Of a stretch of 64,000 bases of DNA, positions 43,806 through 64,000 are shown piece by piece. The first letter of the stretch is position 1, and every line of letters begins with the position of its first letter. Position numbers and translations under genes: made by a program. Below the pieces are notes generated by a model that saw only the letters and a list, made by a program, of their open reading frames with translations, was not told the DNA's origin and did not search any database. This stretch comes from Polytrichum commune (Eukaryota > Streptophyta > Polytrichopsida > Polytrichales > Polytrichaceae): contig OX485804.1 in assembly GCA_950295325.1 (NCBI GenBank), positions 58,390,429-58,454,428 of the forward strand. Reading direction: 5' to 3'.

Positions 43806-43960
43806 GAACTCTCCTCTCCAGTTTCTATCATAGCAGGAAACCTTATAGGGACTTGTCTTTAAGCGATCATCCATCTGCTTCGGTGGAGCAGTTGAGCATC
43901 ATCATCATCAGTGCTGACAAATCAGTTCCATTCAACTGAAGCCGATTTCGACCACACATT

Positions 43961-45181
43961 ATGGCGAATTTCGGGTACATGAAGGTGCCCCTAGCCTACA
44001 TGGTGGCTATGGTGATGTGCATCATAACCATCACGGCGCCATGGCTGCAAGTACCATTGGCTGCAGCTCAGCAGTTCACATTGAGTGCTGACGCCCGAGA
44101 GTTTCTGGAAGCACACAACCAGCTGCGAGCCACGGCTCGTGTTGCAAATCTCGTGTGGAACGACTCGCTTGCGGCGGTTGCAAAATCCTTCGTTGAGCAG
44201 CAATGTGCAAGCTTGGCGCCATGCAGCAGCAGTAGCAGCGCCCAGGGTGTGCCCGCATACTCCAGCGGCCAGAATTCTTGGTGCATTGTCACCAATGCCA
44301 ACACCCAGCCGACGAGTGCTTCCCGAACCGTTGCCACGTCTTCGCATTGGGTTACGAGCAGGTTTGCGAGTTACGATGAACACCACCGGCACTGCGATGG
44401 GGAAGAAGGCGATGGGGAAGAAGGCGATGGAGAAGAAGGCGATGGAGGCAGCAGCAGCGGTGCGGCGACGGCTGGCCCTGTGGCTCGTCCTGCCCCTGGC
44501 CCAGTAGGCTCAGCCTCGGCTCCTGTCCCAGTAGGAGCCGGTTTTGCTCATGCCCCAACAGGCTCTGTGGGCCCTATTACGGAGCCTCCTACCCCTCTCG
44601 TTCGTTCCGGGATTGGCATGCCCCCTTCCCATAATAACGATGCTTCTGGTAACACTGGCACCAACTCTTCTCCCACCCGGGGATCTAGCTCTGGCGGAAT
44701 CGACGCTTCTCCCACCCCTGGATCTGGCTCTGGCTCTGGCGGCATCGACGCTTCTCCCACCCCTGGATCTGGCTCTGGCTCTGGCGGCATCGACGCTTCT
44801 CCCACCCCTGGATCTGGCTCTGGCTCTGGCTCTGGCTCTGGTGGCGTCGGTGCTTCTCCCACCCCTGCACCTCTCATCGTCCCTGGCACTGGCAGCAGCA
44901 ATGACGGCGAGGAGGGAGATGGTGAAGAAGAGCATCACCATCATTGCCATAGGGAGGGAGATGGGGAAGGAGACGGAGAGGGAGACGGAGAAGAGGGTGG
45001 AAATGCGGCACAATACTTTGCGCAGATGGTGGACAGCAAGACAGTGAGCACGGGTTGCTACAGCCTGCAGTGCACCGCCAATGGGGTGTCCTACGCCGCC
45101 TGCGAATACTTTCCCGCATTGCCGGGGATTCCCTACCCACCTCCGAACCCCTTCACAAAAGTGCAAGGGTTGAATTTATAG
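43961..45181 (+). CDS. Secreted CAP/PR-1-like protein with large acidic and Ser-Gly-Pro insert
   Basis: A single-exon frame of 406 residues. Residues about 10-36 are hydrophobic and end in AAAQQ, consistent with a signal peptide and secretion. The CAP domain starts at SADAREFLEAHNQLR, with LVWNDSLA and EQQCASLAPC following as in PR-1 proteins. In place of the usual short link to the GHYTQVVW strand there is an insert of about 200 residues: acidic EEGDG repeats, a Pro/Ala stretch, GSGSGGIDASPTP repeats, then a His-rich EEHHHHCH and further EGDGE repeats. The domain resumes at YFAQMVDSKTVSTGCYSLQC and closes with ACEYFPALPGIPYPPP, the CAP C-terminal signature. The GEN motif is GQN and the conserved second His is absent, so canonical metal binding by the CAP tetrad is doubtful. 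A broken relative lies at 35237-39280. The role is unknown; PR-1 proteins bind sterols or act in defence, but that is not shown here. Confidence 0.85.
   Translation: MANFGYMKVPLAYMVAMVMCIITITAPWLQVPLAAAQQFTLSADAREFLEAHNQLRATARVANLVWNDSLAAVAKSFVEQQCASLAPCSSSSSAQGVPAYSSGQNSWCIVTNANTQPTSASRTVATSSHWVTSRFASYDEHHRHCDGEEGDGEEGDGEEGDGGSSSGAATAGPVARPAPGPVGSASAPVPVGAGFAHAPTGSVGPITEPPTPLVRSGIGMPPSHNNDASGNTGTNSSPTRGSSSGGIDASPTPGSGSGSGGIDASPTPGSGSGSGGIDASPTPGSGSGSGSGSGGVGASPTPAPLIVPGTGSSNDGEEGDGEEEHHHHCHREGDGEGDGEGDGEEGGNAAQYFAQMVDSKTVSTGCYSLQCTANGVSYAACEYFPALPGIPYPPPNPFTKVQGLNL
44391..44452 (+). repeat. Coding minisatellite, acidic EEGDG units
   Basis: Tandem units of about 15 bp (GATGGGGAAGAAGGC type) encoding repeated EEGDG in the CAP insert. 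Similar units occur near 44907-45000 and in the pseudogene, which points to an expandable low-complexity module. Confidence 0.8.
44695..44860 (+). repeat. Coding minisatellite, Ser-Gly/Thr-Pro units
   Basis: Three or more units of about 54 bp, each running GGCGGCATCGACGCTTCTCC then ACCCCTGGATCTGGCTCTGG, encode GIDASPTPGSGSGS repeats. The near-identity of units indicates recent expansion. Confidence 0.85.
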
Positions 45182-49068: not shown

Positions 49069-50682
49069 TTGATCCCAACCTTGAATCCAAGAAACGCATG
49101 CGTGTGGTTGACCTAGCTTTTATTTATGACTCCCAACAAACTCTAGAGTGCATAGTAGAGGAGAACAATTTCAACTTCAAAGACATTGCAAACCTAATTG
49201 TGACCAACAACCTCACTAGAACTGAGTACCGTGAGTCGCAATTGGTATTGCTCATACAAACACTTATTGTTGACATTGGCCCCCCCCCCCCCCTCTTTTG
49301 CATCAACAATGCTCCTAAAAAAATGTGAGAACTCATAACAAAAATTAAAAACCCTAAACCTTACCCATATACCAAGCAAACAAAACCCAATAGTTGGAAA
49401 AATGAAGATTGGAATGGGCGCACCTGAGGAGTGCAACTATGCGTGTGCACCTATTGTCCAACCTTCAACAATCAACCATCAACATTTGCCAAGTTTGCAA
49501 GATGGTGGGAGTTTGCACAAACATGAACACTTCAAAGAGCTTAGACTGCAAACCATAACTAGGTTCTCATAAAGCCAAACACAATGCACAAATCCGCCAA
49601 GAGCCCTTCCCACATATGAGCTAATAGATTACATCCAACTACCAAGAGACATCCGCGACATGTCATCCAATGGTGCTCATCCATAGCGTGGGGCCCTAAT
49701 ATATAATATTCTAGTTCCCCATCCTACCAAACCCTATGGTACGTTAGTTTTACAACTTCTCTAACATGATCAATTTGTAAACACCCTAAGTTAATTATAC
49801 CTTGGAGTTCAATATATAACTTGAGCTTTGTTACAAATATGAGTTTTATAATTTGTAGGTTGCAACTTTAAAATGGAGCCTATATTTGTTCTCACGTAGT
49901 TTTCAAAAACATGAGAGTGACCCCCCAAGATGCAAAATCTACCGTCCATAATTTTTTCTAAAATTTTATTGATTTTCAAAACATTTGCGGGTACTCAAAT
50001 GACGGCAGATTAGGCTATAGACTTTTAGGTGGTGGGTCATCAATCACCTCACCTCAAATCATCATTGCGCTAGAATAAAGAGCCACCAAGCAAAGAAATA
50101 ACTGACAGTTACAACAAGTGGTTACACAAGAATAATCAAGACTAAGTTATACTTTGTTGAGGAGCGGAAGAGAGCTGCAGTTGCCGAGAGAAGTGTAGAC
50201 CCTGGCGATCAAAGTTGTCTTCTTTGCAAAAACACATGTAAGTTCTATGTATAGTTTTGCTTTGTATTTTCCTTGAAAGTAACACTATATTCGGTATTTG
50301 GAGACTTTTTGTTGATTATGAGACTATATAAGGATGCACATTTCAAAATTGGACCAGTAATGACGACTAAAAATCCCATATGTATAATGGTATGCTACTA
50401 TTATTATACATAAAGGCATGGAAGTGAAAAAAAATGTGAGGCATACATGAAAATAGTTGCGTATGAAATGACAACTCGTTATGAATGGAAGGGAAGATGC
50501 GAAGAATGAATGGAAGTTGAATGAATTAATTGGGATAGAAATACAATTATAATGGAAATACCATCAATGTCTTGAGTAACTTGGAATAGCATAGAAAGTA
50601 AGCACTTAAATATGTTCTACACCTAAGCCCATTTAGGGAGCCCGTCCCACTAGTACGCTTCTAGTCACACTAGTCCGACCCA
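49069..50682. other. Intergenic, no gene seen
   Basis: AT-rich, with a poly-C tract of 14 at 49280-49293. This is the 3' flank of the large minus-strand gene. Confidence 0.5.
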
Positions 50683-51652
50683 CTATTTTTTTTTTGCGGC
50701 TAAGTCCTTTTTTTGGGCGGCCTCCATGGCTCTAAAAATCTCAGGCCCACGACTGTATCCTTGTGTGTTGCCTGGAAAGGAATATGTGTCGTTCTTGCAT
50801 GTTTCAGGACGCGCTCCCGAATTGTACGAGGTGGTATTATAAGTAGAATACGAGGGCGTTTGCGAAAGGGAACGTCTTGCGCTTCTCCGGAGGGCCAGAG
50901 AACGATCGGACTCGGAAGATGCGGCCTTGAGGGCGTGCCTTGGCACTGACGAAGTCGAGGAGGGTTGGCCACCAAGCGAGCGGGGAGCCACCTGCCAAAA
51001 AACGCCATAGGAAGATAATAATAAGAACGGAGTGGGGAAAATGAGGAAGGGCGGTTTGGGATGGGCGCTCGTAAACCTCTTGGCACGCACAGACAAAGAG
51101 GAAAGCAACGGTGAATATGGGTTTAGGGACAAAGAAGGGCACCTTGGATTTGGTGACATCGATCCCGGGGACGATGGGGGCGTCGAGGAGAGCATACGAA
51201 TCCGGTTGAATTGCGGCACTGTTCAGTAATGTGGGGGAAGCATGGCAAGGAGGGCCAATGACCGGGGATGGGTTTGCAGGAGGAGGAACGGGGACGACGG
51301 GGGAGGGGTCGCACCGGGTTGCTTCCAGGTGGAGACGTCGGCTCGGCCCACGACGAGCGATGGCGTCGTCCCTCGAGGGCGACACATGCCCCAAACGAAC
51401 GAGCGTCCGCTTCTCCTTGGAGAGGGGGGAGGGCGACGGGGCGAACGCCCGAGGGACAACCCTGGGGGGCGGGCTGTTGACAACACCGTCGTCGACGTCC
51501 CGGGAGTAGTCCACGGCCGAGGCTGCATCCACCGCCGAGAAGTGGTAGAGTGAGGGGATCACGGAATACGTCACGCCGCGGGAAGGGGAGCCTGGGGACG
51601 AGGGGGGACGGGAAAGGCCGTCGAGGACGGGGGCATCACATATGGGGGCAAA
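50683..51652 (-). CDS. Exons E and F: Pro-rich segment and basic C-terminus
   Basis: Exon E (51652-51077) follows a pyrimidine-rich acceptor ending CCCCATAG and encodes a Pro/Ser-rich segment (PRAFAPSPSPLSKEKR, VVPVPPPANPSPV). Exon F (50991-50683) follows TTTTGGCAG and encodes SSESDRSLALRRSARRSLSQ and ends EIFRAMEAAQKKDLAAKKK then TAG. The donor of E is uncertain; GAG|GTTTAC keeps the frame. No domain is recognised. The clean, highly basic C-terminus supports a real 3' end. Confidence 0.45.
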
Positions 51653-54600
51653 CTATGGGGAACAACAACAATAACAACAACAACACAGACAACAAAGACA
51701 TCCAAAAACGGATGAAGCGTTAGATATGTGAACCAAATGATAACACGCACATACATGAAGATATTTCAAATGAGTTTATTAAATTTCGCGAGCCTCATGA
51801 TGCTCTTGTATACATTATCGCGGGGGCTTAGTCCCACATTGCCGATGGGGTTGGACCTAACAAAAAAGGGGATGCTACCGGCGTGGAGGACAAGCCTTCT
51901 AAGGTACGGCGCTAGCGTATCGACCAAAAATGCGTCCTTCCTATCTCCGGTCCACGTGTCGGGAAAGATGACGTTGCCCGGGGGGTTCAAAACGCTCTTG
52001 GCGGGGCTGTCGTCGACCAGGAGGGTGTTCTCCGGAGTAGGCCACCACCCGTGGGGGGTCCCCTGAAGCCGGGGGACGCCGCGCCAAAGTCTGGACCTTA
52101 GGACCTTGAGGAACTGTTGCCCTCGGCCTCGGCCGCCGAACTTGGGAACCGGTAGACCCTTTTCGTCGAGTAGTTCATCGCAGTCCTCTTGCCCGAGGAC
52201 AAGGCAAGGGCTCGGGAGATCACGGAATAGGAAGTCGACGATGGGTTCCGTGTTCTCCATGACCATTGAGCTCCACACAATGACGTGGGCGAACTCGACA
52301 ACCTCGCGAAGGAAGTTGCGCAAGCCGGGACGGGTGCGGACAGCCTTGCGGTTTATTAGGGTGTCGAGCTCGCTGTCATAGTCCCTTTCGTCGGGGTGAC
52401 GGAAGGGACGCGTGGGGACCCTCGGGATGTGTTCGGTGTGACACAACACCCCGTTGAGGTCAAACACGATGAACGGCTTGTTTCGGGTCTGAGGTCCACT
52501 GGTGGAGGGGTTGCGACCTATCTCCGGGGGGTCCTGTGATTAACAATTCGACTAGTTTAATGCTATGATCCAATAAAGAATTTAGCAAACATGAAGATGC
52601 AGTATGGAAAAAGACGAAGGGCGAGAACAAGGGTACATTTGCGAACGATCGTTCGTGAAAGGCCAGCAGTGACCATGCGCACCATTCACGAACGTTCATT
52701 TGTGAATGAACCCTATAGTGCATTTACGAACGGGCGTTCGTGAAGGAGATGGTCGCGGGGTGGCATCCTTTTACGAGCGTCCGTTCGTGAACGAGGCAGA
52801 AATGCACAACAAATTTGAACCCGCATGAACATACACAAAACAACCAATGCGAGACGACGCGATTCGATGCAAAAAAATGTTTCATTTATATGAATTCCGT
52901 GAAAATTTACAGTTTGTCTCAGATGATAATCTATCGTACAGGTTCCTAGGGCAACAAGATGCCGTGTCCTACAAAACTGGTCGACCTGAGGAAGCACGCA
53001 AAAATGGGCTATGTCGCAACCCTTGCTAGCCCTCGACCATCTTGCCAATTTTCATTTCCTAGCAAAGGTTACGAGCGCTAACCATTCGCATACCGCCATG
53101 CTAATGGTTAGCTCCTCTCACCCCGGACCTTATAGTTCATAGGAGGGGAACCAACCCTCCTACTTTGCTTTCGGGACTCACCCCTTCAATCGCTAACCAA
53201 CCCCTTTAATCGGTAACCAATCCTTAGATGTGGACTTCCATCCATGGAAGTCCAATCTTATGTTGATCATCGCGTTGCCGGAGCAACACTACAACAACCC
53301 GAACCATACTAGGCAACTATGGCCTCACATTAGGCCAATGCCAATGGAGGCCGTGCCGTTCGGCCTCGGGTGGGTGAGGCCACACCACCTCACCCATATA
53401 AGCCTCTAGGACTTTACGCGGGGCCCCTACCCCACCGTCAGCCAACCTCTTGTCTCTCTACCAAGAGTTGGGGCCAAGTGGACACTTTCCCTTAGCCGCT
53501 GGGCCTAGAAGCCCCCACCAGCTTTAGACCATCATAACTTCCTTGTATGATGTCCGATTCCAGCAACCAACCACTCCATCTTCATCTACGCTTCACGTAG
53601 ATGCCGATGGACTCCTCACTTGCCCCATTCGGGCAAGTGGTGAGGAAGTTATGCCTGTTTGAACCTTGGCAGTCCCGGGAATCACTCCCAGGCACTGCTG
53701 TAGCAGGGCGCTGTCCCAGGACAGCACCCCACTCAAATGGCCATAACTCCTAGCTCACACCTCCGATTGAGGTGTTCTTGAGCATTCTAGAATCACCACG
53801 CCATGAGCTACGCATAGCTCATGGCCTTACCCTTGTGCCTCCTAGTCTTCGTGGGTGGGAGGCGTTCCCAACGCCCGGGGCCCTCACCCACACTAGGATC
53901 ACTTGGGCCCTCTCACCAACGGCGCCACAAGTCCCGGGTGTCACTCCGGGGTCCCCCTTGTGCCCATGGTGTTTCGGCCACTCCTCATGGAGAGGTGCGC
54001 GACAGGCTATCGGAGGTCTCGGATGCCGATGTATACAACGCGCCAAAAACACAACGCATGTGGTTAGAGATGTTACGAACGCGCGTTCGTAAATGCATGC
54101 GGTAGTCTCAAAGATGAGTTACCTCGTCATCGGAGGGAGGGGCAGCGGCGCTGGATTGAGCGGCAGCTCCCTCCTCAGCGATTAACGAACGCGCGTTCGT
54201 CACATCCGCCGCCGCAGGTGCCTCAGTCTCCATTACGTCGTCAGCACGCGCCGCCTGAGACGTCTGGGTCTGCTGTATGTCGTCCTCCTCGCCACCCAGG
54301 TCGAGAGTCTCCATGTGCACGTCCCCAATGCATGCGGGGGGATGTCGGTGTTCCGCAGGGCTGTCCTCGACGTCCATCCTCTGGACGCCTGCGGTGTCAC
54401 TCGGGCTCCCCTGCGTGTCCTCCACAATGACCAAGTCAGTGTGTCGCGCAGTATCATCACCCCTTGTCCTATCTAGTAAACTGGGGACGACGGTGAAAGG
54501 TGCCGTGTCCGTCTGTGAAGGCAGTCCTACCCTTGGTGGGGGTGGGGTGAGGACTGTTGGACCTGAAGATTCACGAACGTGTGTTCGTAAATCCTCGTCC

Positions 54601-57600
54601 TCACGGATAGCCGCCGAGATTGTGTCGTGTATGTTGGCGGTGTCCATGGGCATTGTAGGGGGTGGAGGAGTCCCCACCGGCATTGGGTGGGGCGCTGGCT
54701 GGTAGGAATGCCCTCCCGGGAAAGGACCGTGCATGGGGTATCCCGTAGGGAATGGGAATGCTGCCTGAGGGGCCACTGCAAAGTTCTGCAGCCTGGTCAG
54801 CATCGTCAGTATGGCGTCCGTCTTCTCGTTGGAGGACTTCAGCTCCTCCTCAATTTTTCTCATTTTCCGGGCATTCTCCTCTGCAGCCGCAGCCATGTCT
54901 TCCTTCATCTTCTGCTCGAGCTTTGCGTTAAGCTCGGCGACGGAAAGGGCCTCCTCCTTGACCCTCTTGTTCTTGTCGAACTCCACCCCAAGCTCGACCA
55001 TAATGTCAATGTCCCCCTCGTCCTCGTCGGAGACCTCGATGATCGCCCCCTCGGGCAACTCCACGTACGGGGTCTTCTTCATCCTCCGTCGCGTGTTGCG
55101 GAACAGGTCCAACGTGGGACGGGAGCGTTGGTCGAGGACATCGAGGGTCTCCATTTTCGGGACCGCCAGCCTTTGCTTGGGGGACACTGACATCGAACAA
55201 CCTCCTGGCGTGCCGAAGGGCTCCGCGCCTGAGGTAAGCGCGGGGAGGACATCCTGGGTGGCACCCGCCGAGGATCCAGTACATCCAGCCGGTGTCCCTT
55301 GGTATTCTGAAGGCTCCCCCGATGGGGCCAACAACCGGAGAGGAGTGACATCCAAAGCCTGGAGGATGGCATCGACGTTGACGGAGGGGCCAGGCTCGTC
55401 GTCCTCTGTTTCCATGGGCGGCATGCCTTCATCGGCCGGCATGTTGAAGTCCGTTATGGGCACGGACATGTCAGCTAGGTCCATCGTCGACGCTTTTGTC
55501 ATGTGGAACTTGTAATCCTCCTCGTCGACGGCGTCAATATATGTGTTCACGCACAACCCCAGCATCTGAGATAAGAAGGCAAAGATTCAGTCATTTACGA
55601 ACGCGCGTTCGTAAACATGAAGGCTTTGAGCGAGGAAATAATAAAAAAACAATTCACAAAACAATCATAAGTATCGGCTGCCCATGGTAAATTGTTTGGA
55701 GCATGCAGTGTTTACGAACGAGCGTTCGTAAAAAGTGGTGTGAGATGGCTTACCATGGCCGCGTACATAAATTTGCTGCCTCCAAATACGTTGTAGACAG
55801 TCTCGCCAGTCATTGCCAAACCCTGCAATATGGAGACGTAGAACTCCATCCTCAGCTCCAGCGCCGGGAAGACAGTGTACAGAGTCTCATGGAAGAGATC
55901 CTTTGGAGGTGGGTGAGGGATGCTGTATATCTTCTTGAATGTGTTGATCGCCTTTATGGGTGCTCGCCCATTCCTAAGCGCATTGTACGTCAAGAAGATG
56001 AGGCTCACCGCTCCCACCTGCCTGTTGCCTCTGGCCTCGTTTACGGCAACAATTCCCTCCGTCTTCGCTGGCACGTATGTGCTGTGGAAGATGTTGTACT
56101 CGAACTTGATCTTGTTCTCATACAAATCGATGACGACGGATTGCTTCTCCTGCTCCACAATCCACAGCCATACGTGGGGCTCCCTTATGGTCGGAGATTT
56201 GTGCTCCATGAATTTCGCCATGAAAGGGTTGTAAAAAGGCTTGTAAAAAGGCTCCCCCTTCGCGCCCTGTCGCGAGGCACCGGGTATCCCTCTGAAGTCG
56301 ATGACCGCGAAGGGACAACCCCTTCGATCCTCCCTGACCTCGGACCTGCTGAAGGTGCCATCCCACTTGGAAAACGTGGTCCTCTCCAGCCCTGTGGTCA
56401 CCACACAAAATCTTGCCACGCCCTCGAAGATGGCGTTCCTCTTCCTCTCCAAGAAGGAGATGTACCGTTGAATATCTTCAGGTTCCGTTTCTGTTTTTTT
56501 TGCTCTTTTGTTTCCCTTGAGCTTCAGGACGGCGACGTGCTCCTTCACCAGGCTGCGCATTGAGGCACCGTTGATATTGTACAGCGCCTTGAACTCCTTC
56601 CATTTCGCCCAGTTGATATCTTCGTCGGCCTGGAAAAGGTGCATCTCAGGCAATAGGCCGCTAATCTCCCGCATCGCAGCGGTCTTCAGCTTCCTGTGGT
56701 CGCACCACTCTTTGATCGAGTACGTGCCGGGCTTGTGCTTTGGTCTCTTCAAAAATATCTTGGGATAAGGGATGGTCCTTCCGATGGTGTTCCCAAGAAC
56801 GTGAACCGCACATCGCTGCAACTCTGATTCAGTCAGTCCTTGCAGGGCCCTAAAAAATTCCCGCAGTAGAGGCGGAGCCTCTCCGCTCTTCTCTTGAGCG
56901 TACTTCTCTTCTGTGTCTGGGTTCACCAGATCGCCCGAGCTGTGAGCGTCGAAGAACTGGGTCCACAACTCCCAGGTGTCTCTGTTGCAGCAAATCAGAC
57001 GGAGCTCACCTTTGAGCTCCAGAACTGATTTGGTGCTTGTGGACTTCATGTCGATGGAGGAGAATTTGTCCACCATCGCATCACAGAACGCCTGCAACAT
57101 ACATACGAGGACGTCAGTGTTCAATACTAAATACGAACGCGCGTTCGTAAGTTGGAAAATTTAGAAATTGTTTAATGCAACATATGCTTTACGAACGCTC
57201 GTTCGTAAACTCACCTTCCACTGTGGAGATTGCGTCTTGGCGTTCTCCCTCTCTTTTGGCGGGCATCCGTGCGCGACCCACACGTCTCTGGCCGCCACTA
57301 TATTCGCCGCCCAGGAGGCCTCAAATGCCTTGATCTTGTTTCCGGAATTCAAAAATGTCGATATTTTGCGGAGCTTGTCCCAGTCGTCAGACCAAACCAA
57401 AAACGCCTTCCAGTAGCGCAGGTCCGCCTTGAGCTCGTGCTGGAAGTTATCATCCTTTAGGATGATCTGTGACGCCTCTAGACTGTGTTGTCCATCGATT
57501 ATCCAGAACTCTCCATTCTGGATTCTTGGCCAATCCTTCTCAGTGGGGCGTGACAAAAAACCCTTGGGCATCACGCAGACGGTCTGCCTATCCCACTTCA

Positions 57601-58510
57601 CGTTGTTCATGAGGTTATTAATCTGCCACTTCACCCCTCCGCTTTCACGAGACCTCACCACCCACTTGTTAGGAGATTTCTCGCACTTGAAACAATCCAC
57701 GTTGAAAGTGAAGTGGCGTCCCATAGGCCAGCAATCCTTGGAGTAGTTGTTGAAGTCTCGAAGGATTTTTGTCGCTTTGGCAACGTCTGGGTTTTCTCCC
57801 TTCTTCAAAGGGGTTGGCATCACTGGCGGAGAACTAACCTCAGCGCCTTCCGTCAATCCGGACTTCTCCATCTCGTCCCTCGACCTCTTGGATGGAGTGG
57901 ATTGTCTGTTGGGCCCTTCTGTCAACCTGCTCCCCGAAGGCACAGGCCGCGGAGCACTTCTCGATCCTCCTGCCCCCGAAGCAGCTGGTTTTTTCGGACT
58001 TTATTTTATTTTATTTGCCTCCGCGGCAACACTGTTGTACTTCGAAACATTCAAGGTCAGGGCAGTCAACTTCCTCGCCGTCCAGTGTTGACTCAGGGCA
58101 TATTTGGTGAAGAGAGCATCCAGATTGAAATGTTTCGCATCGGATGCGACATTATTGCATGCATAAGCATAAGAGAATGGGTGCAATAGGTAGTTTAAGA
58201 GGAGGTTCACATGGTCTTTTTTATTTTTCATATCCAGAATAACAAAGTCTCTTTGTGCCTCTGCGGATTCTATCTCCCAATTCTTTGTCTGCACCCATTG
58301 GTCTGGTTGGTCAGCCCTTGTCTGCAGCTCATAAGTGAATTGCAATGCAAACAACCCTTCCTCGGTCTTCGTGGGGATGGCCGTCCACTCAGCCATGAAT
58401 TCTTCTTTTGGGACATAGTTGTCGTTCCCATTGGTATCCGAGACGCCCTCTGGAAGGCGCTCCACTGGCACTGCGAACAAGTCGATGGCGTTTCTGCTAG
58501 CTTTAGCCAT
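50683..58510 (-). CDS. Predicted multidomain gene: ParB-like, methyltransferase-like, coiled coil, FCP1-like phosphatase
   Basis: Six minus-strand blocks join by GT-AG sites that are all phase 0: 58510-57215, 57091-55754, 55565-54123, 52533-51814, 51652-51077, 50991-50683. That is 5682 nt, about 1893 codons, open except for one TAA at 58001-58003 (codon 170). Domain order is an unrecognised N-terminal part, a ParB/DGQHR-like domain, a degenerate N6/N4 methyltransferase-like fold, a disordered and coiled-coil linker, an FCP1/NLI-like HAD domain, and a basic tail. The N-terminal ATG follows an acceptor-like TGATGCAG, so an upstream exon or 5' UTR intron is likely. The first three joins are strong. 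The joins after 54123 and beyond 51814 rest on splice-site and phase agreement only, and the 3' third could be separate genes. GC content is higher than in the surroundings. The domain mix resembles cargo of large mobile elements. The nonsense codon may mean a pseudogene. Confidence 0.55.
51814..52533 (-). CDS. Exon D: FCP1/NLI-interacting-factor-like HAD phosphatase domain
   Basis: 240 codons, phase 0 at both ends (acceptor AATCACAG|GAC, donor GATAAT|GTATAC). HAD motif I reads FIVFDLNGVLCHTEH, motif II VIVWSS, and the C-terminal motif TLLVDDSPAKSV, the arrangement of RNA polymerase II CTD phosphatase relatives. The usual DxDGT/V is DLNGV, so the second catalytic Asp is Asn, as in some plant NIF-like proteins, and phosphatase activity may be lost or altered. 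If not joined to exon C, this would be a stand-alone NIF-like gene with a missing first exon. It could also end at its own stop (51766) after NKLI. Confidence 0.75.
52638..52791. repeat. Palindrome cluster near the 3' end of the large gene's third intron
   Basis: Four palindromes of the ACGAACG-NN-CGTTCGT family at about 52638-52660, 52684-52708 (decayed), 52723-52745 (exact core, centre GG) and 52769-52791 (one or two changes). They lie 104-260 nt before the exon D acceptor. Confidence 0.9.
52795..54072. other. Interior of third intron, possible retroelement-derived sequence
   Basis: About 1.3 kb between the palindromes. Stretches such as CATAACTTCCTTGTATGATG, GGCCATAACTCCTAGCTCAC and CTCCGATTGAGGTG resemble phrases common in plant LTR retrotransposon LTRs. 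No TG...CA termini, target duplication or coding frame could be fixed. Confidence 0.3.
54073..54092. repeat. Palindrome just downstream of the exon C donor
   Basis: Exact core with centre CG, about 30 nt inside the intron after GAG|GTAACT. Confidence 0.9.
54123..55565 (-). CDS. Exon C: acidic, Pro-rich linker with coiled coil and two in-frame palindromes
   Basis: 481 codons. It opens with the end of the methyltransferase-like fold, then Pro/Ser/Asp-rich sequence, an acidic IIEVSDEDEGDIDI stretch, a clear coiled coil (VAELNAKLEQKMKEDM through MRKIEEELKSSNEK), a PFPTGYPMHGPFPGG region, and a long disordered acidic tail ending PSDDE before the donor GAG|GTAACT. Two copies of the local palindrome lie inside the frame: one encodes LRTHVRE (54571-54592) and one VTNARSL (54182-54203). 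Read through the donor, the frame ends at VTHL and a stop at 54108. Confidence 0.65.
54182..54203. repeat. Palindrome inside coding exon C (encodes VTNARSL)
   Basis: Exact core ACGAACG-CG-CGTTCGT at 54185-54200. The flank that would usually read GTAAA, and create a TAA in this frame, instead reads GTTAA on the coding strand, so the frame stays open. Confidence 0.85.
54571..54592. repeat. Palindrome inside coding exon C (encodes LRTHVRE)
   Basis: One arm mismatch (TG-TGTTCGT on the plus strand). It is inserted in a different reading frame from the other coding copy, again without a stop. Confidence 0.85.
55594..55732. repeat. Palindrome pair bounding the second intron
   Basis: Full palindromes at 55594-55615 (centre CG) and 55711-55732 (centre AG). 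The intron runs from 55753 down to 55566, so one palindrome starts about 21 nt after the donor and the other ends about 28 nt before the acceptor. Confidence 0.92.
55754..57091 (-). CDS. Exon B: degenerate DNA-methyltransferase-like region
   Basis: 446 codons from an acceptor at GTTGCAG|GCG to a donor at GCCATG|GTAAGC. The first half is helical and charged, with KKTETEPED. The second half has CPFAVIDFRGIPGAS, HVWLWIVEQEKQSVVIDLYENKIKFEY, and at the end ETVYNVFGGSKFMYAAM, continuing in the next exon as MLGLCVNTYIDAVDEEDY. That last segment follows the motif-I arrangement of N6/N4 DNA methyltransferases (a Gly-rich FxG loop, helix with Ala-Ala, LG, then an acidic strand end). The catalytic DPPY-type motif is not intact; IDFRG may be its remnant. 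Activity is therefore doubtful. ParB-like domains fused to such methyltransferases are known in phages and mobile elements. Confidence 0.55.
57133..57209. repeat. Palindrome pair bounding the first intron
   Basis: 57188-57209 (centre CT) begins 5 nt after the donor GTGAG; 57133-57150 (centre CG) ends 41 nt before the acceptor. The whole intron is 123 nt (57214-57092), so the two palindromes make up about a third of it. Confidence 0.92.
57215..58510 (-). CDS. Exon A: N-terminal region and ParB/DGQHR-like domain, with in-frame stop
   Basis: 432 codons. Codons 1-169 (MAKASRNAIDLF and onward) match no family I know. TAA at 58001-58003 sits in an (AAATA)3 pentanucleotide run, and the frame continues open on the other side with SPKKPAASG, so the two parts belong together. 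The second part has a Cys pair (DCFKCEK), then INNLMNNVKWDRQTVCVMP and EFWIIDGQHSLEASQIIL. The last pair matches the ParB/sulfiredoxin-fold pattern with a DGQH core (codons about 339-342). A product starting after the stop could use the ATG at 57871 and would keep this whole domain. The exon ends in K at CAGTGGAAG|GTGAGT. Confidence 0.6.
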
Positions 58511-58541
58511 CTGCATCACACAAGAGCAAATCAGAATTGCT

Positions 58542-59028
58542 TTTACGAACGTTCGTTCGTAAACAACACCGTGCCATGCATATTATTTTCATAGTGTGGT
58601 TTTTGGAAATACGAAGTTTTGAATGCTTTATGCATTTCAGGGTGTTTCTAATGCATTCACATTGGTTCACATCTTTCACGAACGCGCGTTCGTAATATCA
58701 TATACATGTTTATTAGTAGTTTGTACATAACTATACGAACGCGCGTTCGTAAAGTCATGCGATATTGTGGAACCTACTGAGTTAAATTTAGTGTTGTGAT
58801 TGGATTTAAGTACTTATATGAATTACAGCATGGATATATCCCTCCATTTTGGATTTAGAGTTTTGAACGCACATTCGTAAACGTAGTCCGTGGGTTCCAA
58901 AGAATCTTTACGAACGCGCGTTCGTGAAATGGTATATATTTTGCGCGGCCTATGCATTTACGAACGCGCGTTCGTAAATGGGTGTATATTGTGCGCGGTA
59001 GAGGTATTTACGAACGCTCGTTCGTAAA
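58542..59028. repeat. Palindrome cluster upstream of exon A
   Basis: Seven copies: 58542-58563 (centre TT), about 58675-58696 (CG), 58735-58754 (CG), 58861-58882 (decayed), 58907-58928 (CG), 58957-58978 (CG), 59007-59028 (CT). The first is about 30 nt from the acceptor-like TGATGCAG before the exon A ATG, as expected if this is the 3' end of another intron. Confidence 0.92.
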
Positions 59029-61050
59029 TGAGCCTGTTGTTTGTTTTTATATATATAATTAATAATAACAATATAGTGTCCATACATATACGGATTCATA
59101 TATATACGAATTCGTATACATACGTATGGCAAGGTCTTGCTTGCTGTGTCTCAGCAAAGCTTGCACTTGTGCCTGCAAGTGTTCGTCAGAAAGGTGAGAT
59201 TGAAGAAAAACAATACAATCAAAACATATAGACTTGGAATGTGACAGAGAATTCAGAACGAGGATCCGAACTTGACTTCCAAAACACATGCCATTCAATA
59301 ATGAACAAATATAGACTGTGAAGGATTTGAGAAGGGAAGGAATATTGTGCTTACTCTGAAATTTTACACACCCAAAAGCTGCTTGCTCCTTTGTTGAAAA
59401 CCCCAGGAAACCCCACAAAAGCAAGGTGATTTGAAAGTCAAATGCACCACTGCACCACTGAAATTTCCTTCACACTAGTTGTTGCATGCTATGTACGAAC
59501 CCTAACTAAGACTCTGATGTATATGCAATTTCAAATGCAGTATTTCTCAAGCTGCTACTCTAAAACTTGCAATTATCAAGCTTATAGCTTGAGTATCCTA
59601 ATCTTAAGCTTCCAACTCTCAAGCTTTAAACTCTACAAACTTTCAACTCTCCAACTTTCAACTCTTCTAACTCGAGTTCTCTATTCTTGAGCTGCAACTC
59701 TCAAGGGACTGTCAATAACTCTCAACACTTGCGCCTACAAAAGAAGTGCACCACACAAAACTAAAAAATGCAAGAGCTTCGCCTCTAAACTCTAAACCAA
59801 CGCGGCGCTCCTCCTCTCTCTGCTCCAAATGAGAATGAGGAAGGAGAGGAGGGGGCGCGGGGAGGTAGCCCGCGCCTCTAGGGTTTTCCCTCGGGCTGCC
59901 ACATGGCCGCTTCCCATTGGGGAGGGAAGGGATGGGTCGGGCTAGGAAGATGAGGGGATGGGATGGGGAGATAGCATGGGGTGTGGGATGGGTGGATGGG
60001 GGGGATGGGTTGGAATTCATTGGGGTTTAGTAATTCAATGTAATCAAAGCACATAAATATATTCAATGTGACTTAATAAAGTGATTTGCATGGGGGGCAC
60101 TAACCGATTTGACATAAATCTATGTCATCACAATAAGAAATGCAACTATATATTACACCATTTGCACTTAGTTTGAGACTTTCCCAACTCTCTAATTAAC
60201 GAAAATAATCTAAGTTGGATGTATAAGCAATAAAGGCACGTTAATTTCAAGCTTTTTAATATGTATATGCCTCCATCACATAAACATAAGGAGTCCAGTA
60301 CAAAACATGCATTTTAAATGCTACATCCCCTTCATCTACTTTGGATTCATTGTAAACATCTTCTAGATAAGGAGTATGAATTCAATTTCCACATTGCACA
60401 TCATGTACTAGGGATTCGATGAAAACCCTACCCCCAACGATGTGTATTAATATGGTGTTTTCAAATATATAGTGTTCTCATAATTGAAATATCTTTCAAG
60501 TTTTTAAATGGTTCCTCAAATAATTTAATATAAGATCCATAAAGGTCCCGATTTAAGATTGGTGGGAACGGTTTAGGATTTTCTTACAAGAGGTGCGGGA
60601 AAATTCAATTTCAAATACTAGGCTTTCAATTCAGTTTATTATGTGTGAACTTGAACTACTGCATTAAATTTATTATTATATTTGTTAATCCGAGACTTTG
60701 GAAAGTCTCAAAATAAATGCAAATGATTTAATATGTGGTTCAAATTCTTATTCGGATGAGATGTATTTGTGCCAAATTGGTTAGTGTTGCCCATGCAAAT
60801 CGCTTTATTGTGTCACATTGAATGTATTCTTGTGTTTTACTTGTTCTTTATTTGAATACCATGTTCTGAAATAGTATCCAAAATCATGAAAATGTCCCCA
60901 ATTACAGAATATGGTGATCGTTGAAAGTTTGGCTCGCATCAAATGTAAGCTACAAATAAATTAAGTTAGTGCAATATGGATTTATGAGTAGTGAATATAG
61001 TTTGTATGTAAACCCTGTTATATGAACTACTGGACATGCACATCCCTCAC

Positions 61051-61078
61051 AAACCCTAAACCCTAAACCCTAAACCCC
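61051..61078. repeat. Interstitial plant telomere-type repeat
   Basis: About three to four units of CCCTAAA (AAACCCTAAACCCTAAACCC and onward), the Arabidopsis-type telomere motif. Short arrays of this kind also occur as telo-box promoter elements. Confidence 0.85.
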
Positions 61079-61429
61079 TAGTTTTTTTTACCATCCGCAC
61101 TATATGGGGGAATGTTGTGATCCAACCTAATAGTGTTGAGTGCATTTTAATTACACAATGCATAAGTGGGACTCCATATAGGTATGGTTTCAATTCATAT
61201 CATTACACTATCTTATGCACCATTCCAAATTAATTCAACATTTCCACACAATGTTGAATCAATTCACTATTTGCAAACCTGGAGTTGCATTTGAATTAAG
61301 ATATAAAGTATATCTAGGCATGGTTTGAATTCATCTCCTTAATCTACCTTAGTAGCTTGCATGAATTCACCAGACTTTTTATTGGTGTTCATGCACTTGG
61401 TGAGTATTTGCCGCAATAATGTACATAAA

Positions 61430-61650
61430 TGTAATGTAGATACATGTAATGTAGATACATGTAATGTATATATATGTAAAGTATAGATATGTAAAGTATA
61501 GATATATGTAAGAAACATATATATATAGATATATATTCACACATATATATAGGTATATAGATATATATTTACATATATACAAATATATATATATATGTAA
61601 ATATAAGTAAATATATACATCGATATGTATATAGGAATATATATTTTATT
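61430..61650. repeat. Compound TA/TACATGTAATG microsatellite
   Basis: Degenerate tandem units of GTAATGTAGATACAT type grade into TATATG and TATAGATA runs. The apparent ORF there is low-complexity only. Confidence 0.8.
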
Positions 61651-61849
61651 TTTTGGTTCGGGAAACCTTGGTAACACCTAAGGTGTGGAACGGATGAACA
61701 TATTATCAATGCGTGCATGCCATACATATTCAATACAGAAAGTTATTTATGTCCCGCATGAATAGAATGGCATATTGTTAGGTTAAAGTAGGCGGCGGGA
61801 ATCCGCTTTTCAAAGAGAATCCAAGGGATTTTGAACCACGATAGAGGAG

Positions 61850-61858
61850 TATTTAAAG
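61850..61858 (+). promoter_or_regulatory. Possible TATA box for the plus-strand gene at 63032
   Basis: TATTTAAAG, followed by GC-richer sequence and then the distal palindrome cluster. If used, transcription would start near 61880 and the palindromes would fall in the 5' UTR or a leader intron. Inferred from position only. Confidence 0.3.
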
Positions 61859-62016
61859 CTCTCCCCCCCATTGCAGAGCTCTTTTTTGCGGGAGACACCA
61901 AGTGTGCGCTCCAGACACCCGACGGAGGGCGCTCGAGCCAGTTTCCTGTGCGTGAACCGTACACTCATAGGTGGCAGACAACCTTATCCCGCAAATACCG
62001 CCGCAAATACCGGGGG

Positions 62017-62866
62017 TTTACGAACGCGCGTTCGTAAACCTGCAGTGCGCGCATGTGTTTGTGGATGAGATATATCGAGGTTGGTTGGATGTTTACGAAC
62101 GTGCGTTCGTAAATACCGCCTTGGCGTATATTTTACATCCATAAATGTATAGACCCAGATACGATTATGCATAGGCACAGACAATATGAAAGTCATATAC
62201 GAACGAGCGTTCGTAAATGTACATTTTGAGCATCCGAAGAACATTGGGAATGTGCAAGAGTTTACGAACGCGCGTTCGTAAATATTGAATGCGCGTAAAC
62301 GGTGTATGGTACATACTGAAATGACATTAGAGTTTACGAACGTGCGTTCGTAAGTGACACTGCTTATTTTCAGAATCCATATACTCATGGATATAAGGGG
62401 TATGAAGATGTACATACAATACGATAGTAATTTGCAAACAGAAGGTCGAAAATATCAATGATTTCAGCAGATATATATAAGATGAGCGAGAGTTTACGAA
62501 CGTGCGTTCGTGATTTCCACCTGGGAGTATGTCGATGCATACATCACGCCTCCCTGGGCACGCACACAAATATATATGTATTTACAACAAAATATTAGAC
62601 ATAAATACGAACGTGCGTTCGAATTCATTCAAGGAATGTATCTGGACATTGACTGCGGGATGTGGGAAAATGCTCCATTTGCTCCACATACACATAGTAT
62701 GGGCGAGGGATGTGTATTTGGGGCACATGGAATAATACATTCATATGCGTCAATGACTCTCGGAAGTTTTGTGTAGGCATATAACAGGTATCTCTGCACA
62801 ATTGAAACGGTCCATGTTTTAGTTGACATACAGAATGACGGGGAACATTCGAACGCCCGTTCGTAT
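62017..62866. repeat. Distal palindrome cluster upstream of the plus-strand gene
   Basis: Eight copies: 62017-62038 (CG), 62092-62113 (TG), 62196-62217 (AG), 62261-62282 (CG), 62333-62352 (TG), 62493-62512 (TG), 62606-62623 (one change), about 62848-62866 (one change). A further remnant lies near 62901. Spacing is irregular (about 50-225 nt). Confidence 0.92.
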
Positions 62867-63031
62867 ATATGCCCAACTCAAACAGAAGCGTGTTTGCATG
62901 CAGACGATCGTTCTGTTATTCCCACTGTGACTTGTGCTCTATTGTGACTTAGGTTTACTAAAATCTTGTCGTATTTGTGATTGACTTATATATGTTGTGA
63001 TTCCATGTTCGCGTCATTAGGTGGGTTTGCG

Positions 63032-64000
63032 ATGGATATGGGAGATAGTGCATTTGAGTTGTCGACGAATGCATCGTCGTCGGATACGGAATGTCGCCTC
63101 TCTTCGCCTTCGGAGGATTATATTCGAGGGGCTAACGTCCTGGGTGTGTCTGGGGATACATCCTCCCATGAATCTTTGGAAGGGCAGGAACATTCCCAAC
63201 ATTATGGGGATGATAACGACCACATTCCATTGTGTGCCGGTTTCGGGAGGGAGCAGTGGGTGGGCCTTGATGTTGTTCTTCTGAACGAGCATGGTGTCCC
63301 TGTGGCAAATGGCATTTGTAGAAACTCCGATCCCCTTGAATGTATTGATGCCAACCCCCTTGGATTGGATGATGTTGGCGTTTGCATCTTGAATTCTTTA
63401 CTTCCGTTGGAAGTCCCGTTGACTTGGAGATTTTCCTTGCGGCGATGGCCCCTGCGTCGAGTTCTCCATGAAGAAGTAAGCTTGTGGGATCATGGGCGAC
63501 GGCACAAGCCAACGCAGTCAGCTTTGTTGGCCGCAAGACGTCCTCGCAAAGGTCTGCGCAAATACGATTCTAGTCGCGTGTCTGGCATACAAAAAGAACG
63601 TAGACGGGATTCCATACTTGGAGAGGACTCTATCCGTCAAGTATCCACAAAGGACTGTTGTGCGAAGAAATGTTGTCAATTCTTTCCGCGTGAAAAAATT
63701 AGGTCCCTTCGGCAAGAGATGTGGCTTGCGGATTTTCGTATGAGGTCGGCAAAAAAACTCGAGGTCCACAGAAATTTGCACGTTGACAGCCATGGCAATA
63801 AGGTGGTTACCCTTGAGAATGTGGAAGTGTGTTGCACAGCATGGTATTCCATCCATGCAGTCTCCAAGGCTGATTTTTATAGATTTAGGAAGTATTCTTT
63901 GTTGGGACGCCGTTCTCGATTTCATGGCAACTTGGGCACCAAGAAACCTAGAGAGGCTACACTCCAAGCCTCCGCGACACTCTCCACCATCATAGTCCCG
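63032..64000 (+). CDS. Partial protein, Cys-rich transposon-protein-like, runs off the window
   Basis: From ATG at 63032 the frame is open for 323 codons to the last base, with no stop on this strand in this frame. The N-terminus is Ser/Asp/Glu-rich (STNASSSDTECRLSSPSED), then a basic stretch (SLRRWPLRRV, ARRPRKGLRKY), then CCAKKCCQFFPREKIRSLRQ and, about 60 residues on, ENVEVCCTAWYSIHAVSKADFYRFR and RRSRFHGNLGTKKP. The order CC-x-CC-phenylalanine-Arg, a later Cys before an aromatic helix, and a closing HGN resembles the N-terminal part of a widespread eukaryotic transposon-encoded protein family whose name I cannot fix. An acceptor-like CATTAG lies at 63015-63020, so a leader exon is possible. 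The open frames on the opposite strand are shadows. Confidence 0.65.
   Translation, partial: MDMGDSAFELSTNASSSDTECRLSSPSEDYIRGANVLGVSGDTSSHESLEGQEHSQHYGDDNDHIPLCAGFGREQWVGLDVVLLNEHGVPVANGICRNSDPLECIDANPLGLDDVGVCILNSLLPLEVPLTWRFSLRRWPLRRVLHEEVSLWDHGRRHKPTQSALLAARRPRKGLRKYDSSRVSGIQKERRRDSILGEDSIRQVSTKDCCAKKCCQFFPREKIRSLRQEMWLADFRMRSAKKLEVHRNLHVDSHGNKVVTLENVEVCCTAWYSIHAVSKADFYRFRKYSLLGRRSRFHGNLGTKKPREATLQASATLSTIIVP

Follow-up and report, generated by a model that had tools for sequence, protein, structure and literature searches.

What reads, if anything does, the short palindromes that recur in a 64,000-nucleotide stretch of the nuclear genome of Polytrichum commune (contig OX485804.1, positions 58,390,429 to 58,454,428)? 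This stretch, at its full length, is called the window below, and positions given without a contig refer to it. The palindromes share the core ACGAACG-NN-CGTTCGT and lie within a DNA transposon which carries, besides a transposase-like gene, a second gene (gene 1) whose product is predicted to contain the N-domain fold of ParB proteins. We conclude that the palindromes are real and functional-looking, and that they are probably family-specific operators of this element-encoded ParB-like protein, which would control or protect the element in a VANC-like manner.

A search for the core allowing up to three mismatches gave 27 matches in the window against 0.60 expected, and the largest count in 100 shuffles was 3. 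Nineteen cores were exact (52726 to 62511); seven more, with one to three mismatches, lay in 52638–62866, and one with two mismatches stood just outside, at 51395. The initial annotation of this DNA had reported 19 exact cores and none elsewhere in the window. Our recount gave the same 19, all in 52.6–62.9 kb, and the core search found no exact core in positions 1–50280. The centre bases were also as annotated (CG ten times, TG three, AG two, CT two, and GG and TT once each), and the TTT and AAA flanks described as usual were indeed so: in 113 exact sites from six copies of the element, T was present at −3, −2, and −1 in 91, 105, and 95. The palindromes had further been called locally confined, which holds for the exact cores in the window but fails genome-wide; the 408-Mb genome contains 2,909 occurrences of the 22-bp form TTTACGAACG-NN-CGTTCGTAAA and none of its reversed control. 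Common and uniform spread, which the annotation had set against its own proposal, was found by half: the core is common but, among the matches listed (all on C1), clustered. Two clusters picked by position alone (C1:640001–647500 and C1:2270801–2276800) were both parts of elements like F1, one of the diverged copies considered below, the former with likeness to F1 in noncoding DNA only.

The transposon that carries the palindromes, its copies, and its main features are as follows.

50281–66559 (C2:58440709–58456987): transposon copy W, running past the right end of the window, with boundaries common to copies A and B
C5:45639365–45654667: copy A; W as it stands in the window is the reverse of A
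Within C5:7840001–7866000: copy B
50281–50293, plus strand: terminal inverted repeat AACACTATATTCG, inverted at both element ends
50277–50280 and again 66560–66563: target duplication AAGT (ACTT in the orientation of A)
63032–64000, plus strand: start of a transposase-like DUF7869 open reading frame (ORF) that runs past the window (PF25273, E 4.3e-40 with the copy A protein)
54108–58518, minus strand: gene 1, with exon 1 at about 57212–58518, exon 2 at about 55754–57094, and exon 3 at about 54108–55570
51766–52539, minus strand: NIF/FCP-type phosphatase ORF (PF03031, E 1.2e-15)

Copies W, A, and B have identical boundaries and 98–99% identity; A is 15.3 kb long, and W, with an extra piece at 53013–54004, is 16.3 kb. 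Target duplications of 4 bp were found in four copies: TCCT (A), CAAG (B), ACTT (W, in the orientation of A), and TAGT (F1). For F1 there is also an empty site, in which another locus (L035) joins both F1 flanks with a single TAGT. A copy search was performed with the longest minus-strand exon ORF as the query, and among the 88 of 1,184 candidates that were scored, several copies were 98% identical to the query and open across all of it. The element genes are the DUF7869 gene, gene 1 divergent from it, and the NIF-type phosphatase gene downstream of gene 1. In copy A the DUF7869 ORF is an open frame of 1060 amino acids, and DUF7869 was the only Pfam match of its protein up to E 1. This protein is likely the transposase of the element; a literature search on DUF7869 found no papers. 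The exon borders and splice sites of gene 1 were read from sequence, not transcripts; its exon 1 has a stop in W and is open in copy A.

The positions of the palindromes were counted for 25 sites in W with at most two mismatches, leaving out 51395 (two mismatches) and 58863 (three mismatches).

52638–52791: four palindromes upstream of the NIF ORF (52641, 52688, 52726, 52773), one exact
54072–54591: palindrome at the gene 1 3′ end (54075), with two more in low-complexity exon 3 (54185, 54573)
55594–55732: palindrome pair in gene 1 intron 2 (55597, 55714)
57130–57209: palindrome pair in gene 1 intron 1 (57133, 57191)
58542–59028: six palindromes upstream of gene 1 (58545, 58678, 58735, 58910, 58960, 59010), plus the decayed one at 58863
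62017–62867: eight palindromes upstream of the transposase ORF (62020, 62095, 62199, 62264, 62336, 62496, 62607, 62849)

Upstream of the transposase, gene 1, and NIF there are eight, six, and four of the 25 sites, respectively; the rest comprise two in each gene 1 intron, one just 3′ of gene 1, and two in exon 3. None of the 25 was in gene 1 exon 1 or 2 in W. The palindromes are not subterminal: at the two ends of copy A, the nearest exact cores lie 2.46 and 4.05 kb inward.

Constraint on the sites was measured by taking arms that are exact in one copy and comparing them with another copy wherever the noncoding DNA aligns, in nine segments that we chose. From A to F2, 3 of 168 arm bases were changed, compared with 192 of 1261 neighboring bases (Fisher p 3e-8 for arms vs. 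neighbors) and 8 of 24 centre bases. From F1 to 540 the changes were 0 of 252 in the arms, 71 of 1816 in the neighbors (p 1e-4), and 3 of 36 in the centre. From F4 to F3, where 14 arm bases fall in an alignment gap, they were 6 of 154, 293 of 1558 (p 2e-7), and 4 of 22; because of local duplication, the sites in one copy are not fully independent in any of these comparisons. The arms are conserved, and the 2-bp centre is free to drift. Copies F1, F3, and F4 have 78–86% DNA identity to A over the main alignable blocks. The two stretches of A that hold its upstream clusters are unalignable in these copies, yet the palindromes are kept at the same places. The transposase block is absent from the stretch of F2 that was read.

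Distant relatives of the element were found by a genome search with PF25273, in which 150 of 1,492 candidates were scored, and over-represented palindromes of any kind were sought in stretches of up to 10 kb. Five motif groups were obtained, and a 2-bp centre is common to all of them.

540 family: ACGAACG arms
539 family (L028): ACGGACG arms, GTTTACGGACG-NN-CGTCCGTAAAC
502 family (L033): TGGGTCG arms, GTTTGGGTCG-NN-CGACCCAAAC
692/677 family (the right flank of A, L025, and L034): ACGGGTG arms, CCCACGGGTG-NN-CACCCGTGGG
D family (L026 and L030): TGAGGCA arms, GGTGAGGCA-CA-TGCCTCACC

When the five cores were searched for in 18 stretches, each of the 13 palindrome-bearing stretches held its own motif, and the single foreign core among those 13 was one ACGAACG core in L028. 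None of the five was found in three stretches of a further family (E) or in two control regions. Copies B, F2, and F3 stood outside this matrix and were checked separately; F2 had no foreign cores, and those in the stretches of B (2) and F3 (3) fall outside the elements. Genome-wide counts of the exact long forms covered the ACGAACG, 539, 692, and D groups, the last three of which gave 1,310, 819, and 155 occurrences, with 0 for the controls.

The placement of the sites was also read in two of the other families. The 502 stretch has 31 sites, with 18 upstream of the transposase, nine upstream of gene 1, and four in intron 1; no site is in exon 1, nor in exon 2 as fetched. In the 692 stretch (L034), sites 381 and 477 are upstream of gene 1, 3632 is between the second and third ORFs, 4303 is inside the third, and four more are behind it, two of them upstream of the NIF ORF. 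The 692-type copy beside A has one further site, between its two transposase ORFs. A view of the 692 family as lacking gene 1, taken from 14.8 kb, was dropped when gene 1 was located on C1, ∼13–14 kb from the transposase-side palindromes; we infer that this gene 1 and these palindromes belong to one element. Sensing of CpG by the site was considered as a common trait and ruled out as general to all groups, because the TGAGGCA arms hold no CpG.

Relatives of gene 1 accompany all five motif groups. Identity of exon 2 to that of A is 54% in the 539 family, 38% in 502, and 20% in 692 (E 6e-12), and the E-family protein forms a bridge to the D genes, with 30–33% identity to these and E values of 0.001 to A and 7e-5 to 502. 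One conserved stretch has the pattern GRxFxFxV...R...DGQH. An AlphaFold2 model of gene 1 was built from an 11-row alignment. The best Foldseek matches to the model were Noc bound to DNA (7ol9_B, E 3.2e-3, probability 0.99) and then several ParB structures. In VIA-align, the first 14 rows were all ParB, Noc, PadC, or KorB, with ParB 7bnk_B at Z 10.9 (root-mean-square deviation [rmsd] 2.1 Å over 95 residues) and KorB 8qa8_A at Z 9.3; a best Z of 7–8 is common without true kinship, and 10.9 exceeds that level. By this modeling, gene 1 is predicted to contain a ParB N-domain fold, encoded in exon 1. Noc 7ol9_B aligned over residues 29–371 of the model with an rmsd of 7.9, and behind the N-domain there may be a counterpart of the DNA-binding domain of Noc. 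For exon 2, in the low-confidence half of the model, there were weak methyltransferase-like matches (Dnmt2, MTA1, and Mod, E 0.15–0.5), and acetyltransferases and Alba score like the methyltransferases; a methyltransferase-like remnant there is possible. A GmrSD_N match at E 0.12 in Pfam is a lead only, and the best PDB profile match, Cas1 4wj0 (E 0.57), was taken as chance.

The initial annotation had offered three readings of the palindromes: a dimeric protein-binding site, a foldback mobile unit, and a structured RNA element. The first fits best, given the constrained arms, the free 2-base centre, the families with other arms in the same format, and a protein of predicted ParB fold encoded by the element itself. 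The second is not supported, the palindromes being internal to a 16-kb element that has ends of its own and is flanked by 4-bp target duplications; the third is taken up below. On this reading, the gene 1 protein probably recognizes the palindromes. It would do so as a dimer, each protein reading the palindrome of its own family, and might then load at these sites and spread along the element like ParB, Noc, or KorB. Such spreading would mark the element as self, and the outcome would be that element gene expression is set or host silencing is kept off, as VANC does for Arabidopsis VANDALs; changed arms would keep the protein of one family off the copies of another. The fullest form of this proposal, a ParB–parS-like self-recognition system in a eukaryotic nuclear transposon, with a family-own clamp dependent on nucleoside triphosphate that loads at the 22-bp palindromes, spreads, counters silencing, and founds a new family when it changes together with its palindrome, is offered tentatively, and we think it rather doubtful as a whole.

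Several results weigh against gene 1 as the reader. Searches of its sequence against Pfam, NCBIfam, PHROGs, and PDB gave no significant match, and a genome search with PF02195 (ParB_N) gave three matches, on C12 and C23, with no gene 1 locus among them; gene 1 is not a sequence-level member of ParB_N. In our reading of the alignment, the arginines of the ParB GERR box are replaced in the six aligned gene 1 rows (GQHS, GKHS, GQHT, or GQHI). Confidence in the model is moderate (mean predicted local distance difference test score [pLDDT] 55.3, with ∼80 over most of residues 32–150), and no Foldseek match was below E 0.001. Serine kinases and sulfiredoxin, which have the same fold, reached Z 6.2–8.4 to the model. 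No DNA-clamp role is known for the serine kinases and sulfiredoxin with this fold; ATP and GTP are also reported as ligands of the ParB fold, and which nucleotide is bound can be reliably predicted neither from sequence nor by AlphaFold3 (PMC12704722). In the D group, the sites are tandem repeats with little variation of the centre (CA in 17 of 17 at two loci), and gene 1 is weakly tied to the others, with E values of 1.6e-4 (to 539), 2.4e-4 (to 502), and 0.024 (to A), with no match to 692. In all three E-family stretches, gene 1 relatives are present and no palindrome is repeated; the AlphaFold model of the E protein (mean pLDDT 38) was not used. Finally, the binder could instead be the transposase, whose divergence runs parallel.

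In that case the palindromes would serve the DUF7869 protein as sites of synapsis or of autoregulation, comparable to the subterminal repeats found in CACTA/Spm elements. This is in keeping with the palindromes upstream of its gene and with how far the transposase has diverged across motif groups (identity of 40% with 692, about 50–63% with 502, and 69% with 539). However, CACTA/Spm elements have their repeats clustered in subterminal regions, whereas the sites in copy A keep the distances from the ends given above, and many palindromes are mid-element and in introns. CACTA (EnSpm) elements also have a 3-bp target duplication and ends starting CACTA, in contrast to the 4-bp duplication and AACACTATATTCG ends here; duplications of 4 bp are found in Sola and other superfamilies. 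We consider the transposase an unlikely reader. A host transcription factor or silencing component recruited by the element has an even smaller chance: palindromes upstream of genes do resemble activator sites, but a single motif common to all families would be expected of a host factor, and five motif groups occur in this one genome, each keeping to its own element family.

Slightly less probable again is the RNA reading, in which hairpins from pairs at intron ends would aid splicing and the upstream copies would act in the 5′ leader. Each gene 1 intron in W does hold a palindrome pair, and a hairpin loop would likewise leave the centre free; but the 502 family has 18 tandem copies upstream of the transposase, and the imperfect sites had 19 wobble-keeping vs. 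14 pair-breaking transitions and nine transversions, a small sample with no clear G–U preference. The wobble test was uninformative, and a structured RNA may still apply at the intron sites. Passive repeats, produced by tandem duplication and gene conversion and without function, would account for the tandem arrays in the 502 and D families and at C1:644986–646096. They would not be expected to have arms that change ∼5- to 9-fold less than the aligned neighbors, or never, around a drifting centre, nor to keep the same positions where the surrounding promoter DNA no longer aligns, and we judge this explanation very improbable.

The preferred reading, family-specific operators of the gene 1 protein, is of a known kind, that of an element-encoded protein with a family-specific noncoding motif; what is unusual is the ParB-like protein and the number of parallel motif groups. 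VANDALs are MULE-type elements with a target duplication of ∼9 bp, and their VANC proteins remove DNA methylation. Like the palindromes, the VANC/VANDAL motifs are short, family-own, dense in the introns and intergenic noncoding DNA of the element, and often in tandem; they change between related families, and there too a second, non-transposase element protein is present (PMC5735166; PMC10398659). For VANC21, the motif lies in intergenic DNA and introns, its arrays grew in tandem, and there is one motif per family; VANA is named as the VANDAL transposase (PMC5735166). The VANC21 motif YAGTATTAY is non-palindromic, whereas the sites here are 20- to 22-bp palindromes with a free 2-bp centre, and VANC has DUF1985/DUF287, whereas this element has a protein of predicted ParB fold, a DUF7869 protein, and 4-bp target duplications. 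DUF1985 and DUF287 were absent from Pfam scans of the gene 1 proteins (E ≤ 5 and E ≤ 10). With a different transposase, a 4-bp duplication, and no DUF1985/DUF287, the element is not a VANDAL.

Proteins of the ParB family bind dispersed operators on their own replicon or element and slide from them as CTP-binding clamps, and a helix-turn-helix DNA-binding domain follows their N-domain. Both parS and NBS are palindromic. The likeness of ParB–parS and Noc–NBS to the present case is the ParB N-domain fold, predicted in gene 1; they differ in serving chromosome segregation or nucleoid occlusion, whereas gene 1 lacks the GERR arginines and is in a eukaryotic nuclear transposon. The parS site is 16 bp long (PMC8494293). 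KorB of plasmid RK2 acts from 16-bp OB sites that lie upstream of promoters at distances between 4 bp and >1 kb, and so provides a ParB-family protein with operators near to and far from promoters in one mobile element (PMC11790492); unlike gene 1, it belongs to a bacterial plasmid with a KorA partner, and gene 1 is without the ParB_N sequence signature. Fusions of a ParB fold with an N6_N4-methyltransferase in phages likewise pair this fold with another domain in mobile elements (PMC12704722), but the second half of gene 1 is of low confidence, and a methyltransferase is not established there. The words "transpos" and "plant" were absent from the main text of that source. Among the literature matches listed, which leave preprints and most subscription journals uncovered, none dealt with a ParB protein paired with palindromes in a transposon of a eukaryote.

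If the preferred reading is true, the element would join VANC/VANDAL as a second, independently built case in which a transposon encodes the protein that reads its family-specific noncoding code; a bacterial-style marking system would be in use by a transposon in a nuclear genome, and its self-reading would employ a bacterial-type clamp fold. The presence of several motif groups and diverged proteins in one genome makes the recognition code testable at once, and how a short site marks a 16-kb element, by a spreading clamp or by site density, becomes an experimental question. The gene 1 proteins could also supply orthogonal DNA-recognition modules for plants.

The NIF/FCP-type phosphatase gene travels with the element. 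Its ORF was present in W, in the six other copies checked (A, B, and F1–F4, at 89–98%), and, diverged, in the distant 692 family (L034:6144–6809, E 1.6e-8). Between this ORF and gene 1 lies the extra piece of W.

53013–54004: insertion of ∼990 bp, placed between NIF and gene 1; copy A lacks it, as the gap in its alignment with W shows

This repeat was also found at 91–98% in L024 (four matches) and L026. The region of copy B (L012–L014, C5:7840001–7866000) adjoins transposase parts of another family and TACGGACG palindromes, which suggests one element nested in another. The repeat that surrounds F1 has its empty counterpart in L035. That locus itself has 33 exact cores in 5.4 kb (L035:644–6096; C1:640644–646096), part of them forming a regular array, and no recognizable genes in the element interior within the 7.5 kb read.

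An intact gene 1 relative of 881 amino acids, in one open frame on L029:2383–5025 (C2:44398383–44401025), has no repeated palindromes nearby; its relatives are at C6:11668398, near a DUF7869 match, and at C1:3725621, and it perhaps belongs to a more ancient family or has been retained as a host gene. The PF02195 matches, C12:29034–29273 and C23:8829–9982, are on high-numbered, presumably small contigs and are possibly bacterial contamination or a symbiont. Inside the element, a short run of the telomere-like AAACCCT lies at 61051–61077, near an AT-rich tandem region at 61417–61644. To the right of the element, on the minus strand (L001:5768–7255), are ORFs that appear to resemble a hAT-type transposase. 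At 43940–45181 the window contains an ORF with a CAP (PR-1 type) domain, which also holds 45-bp tandem repeats.

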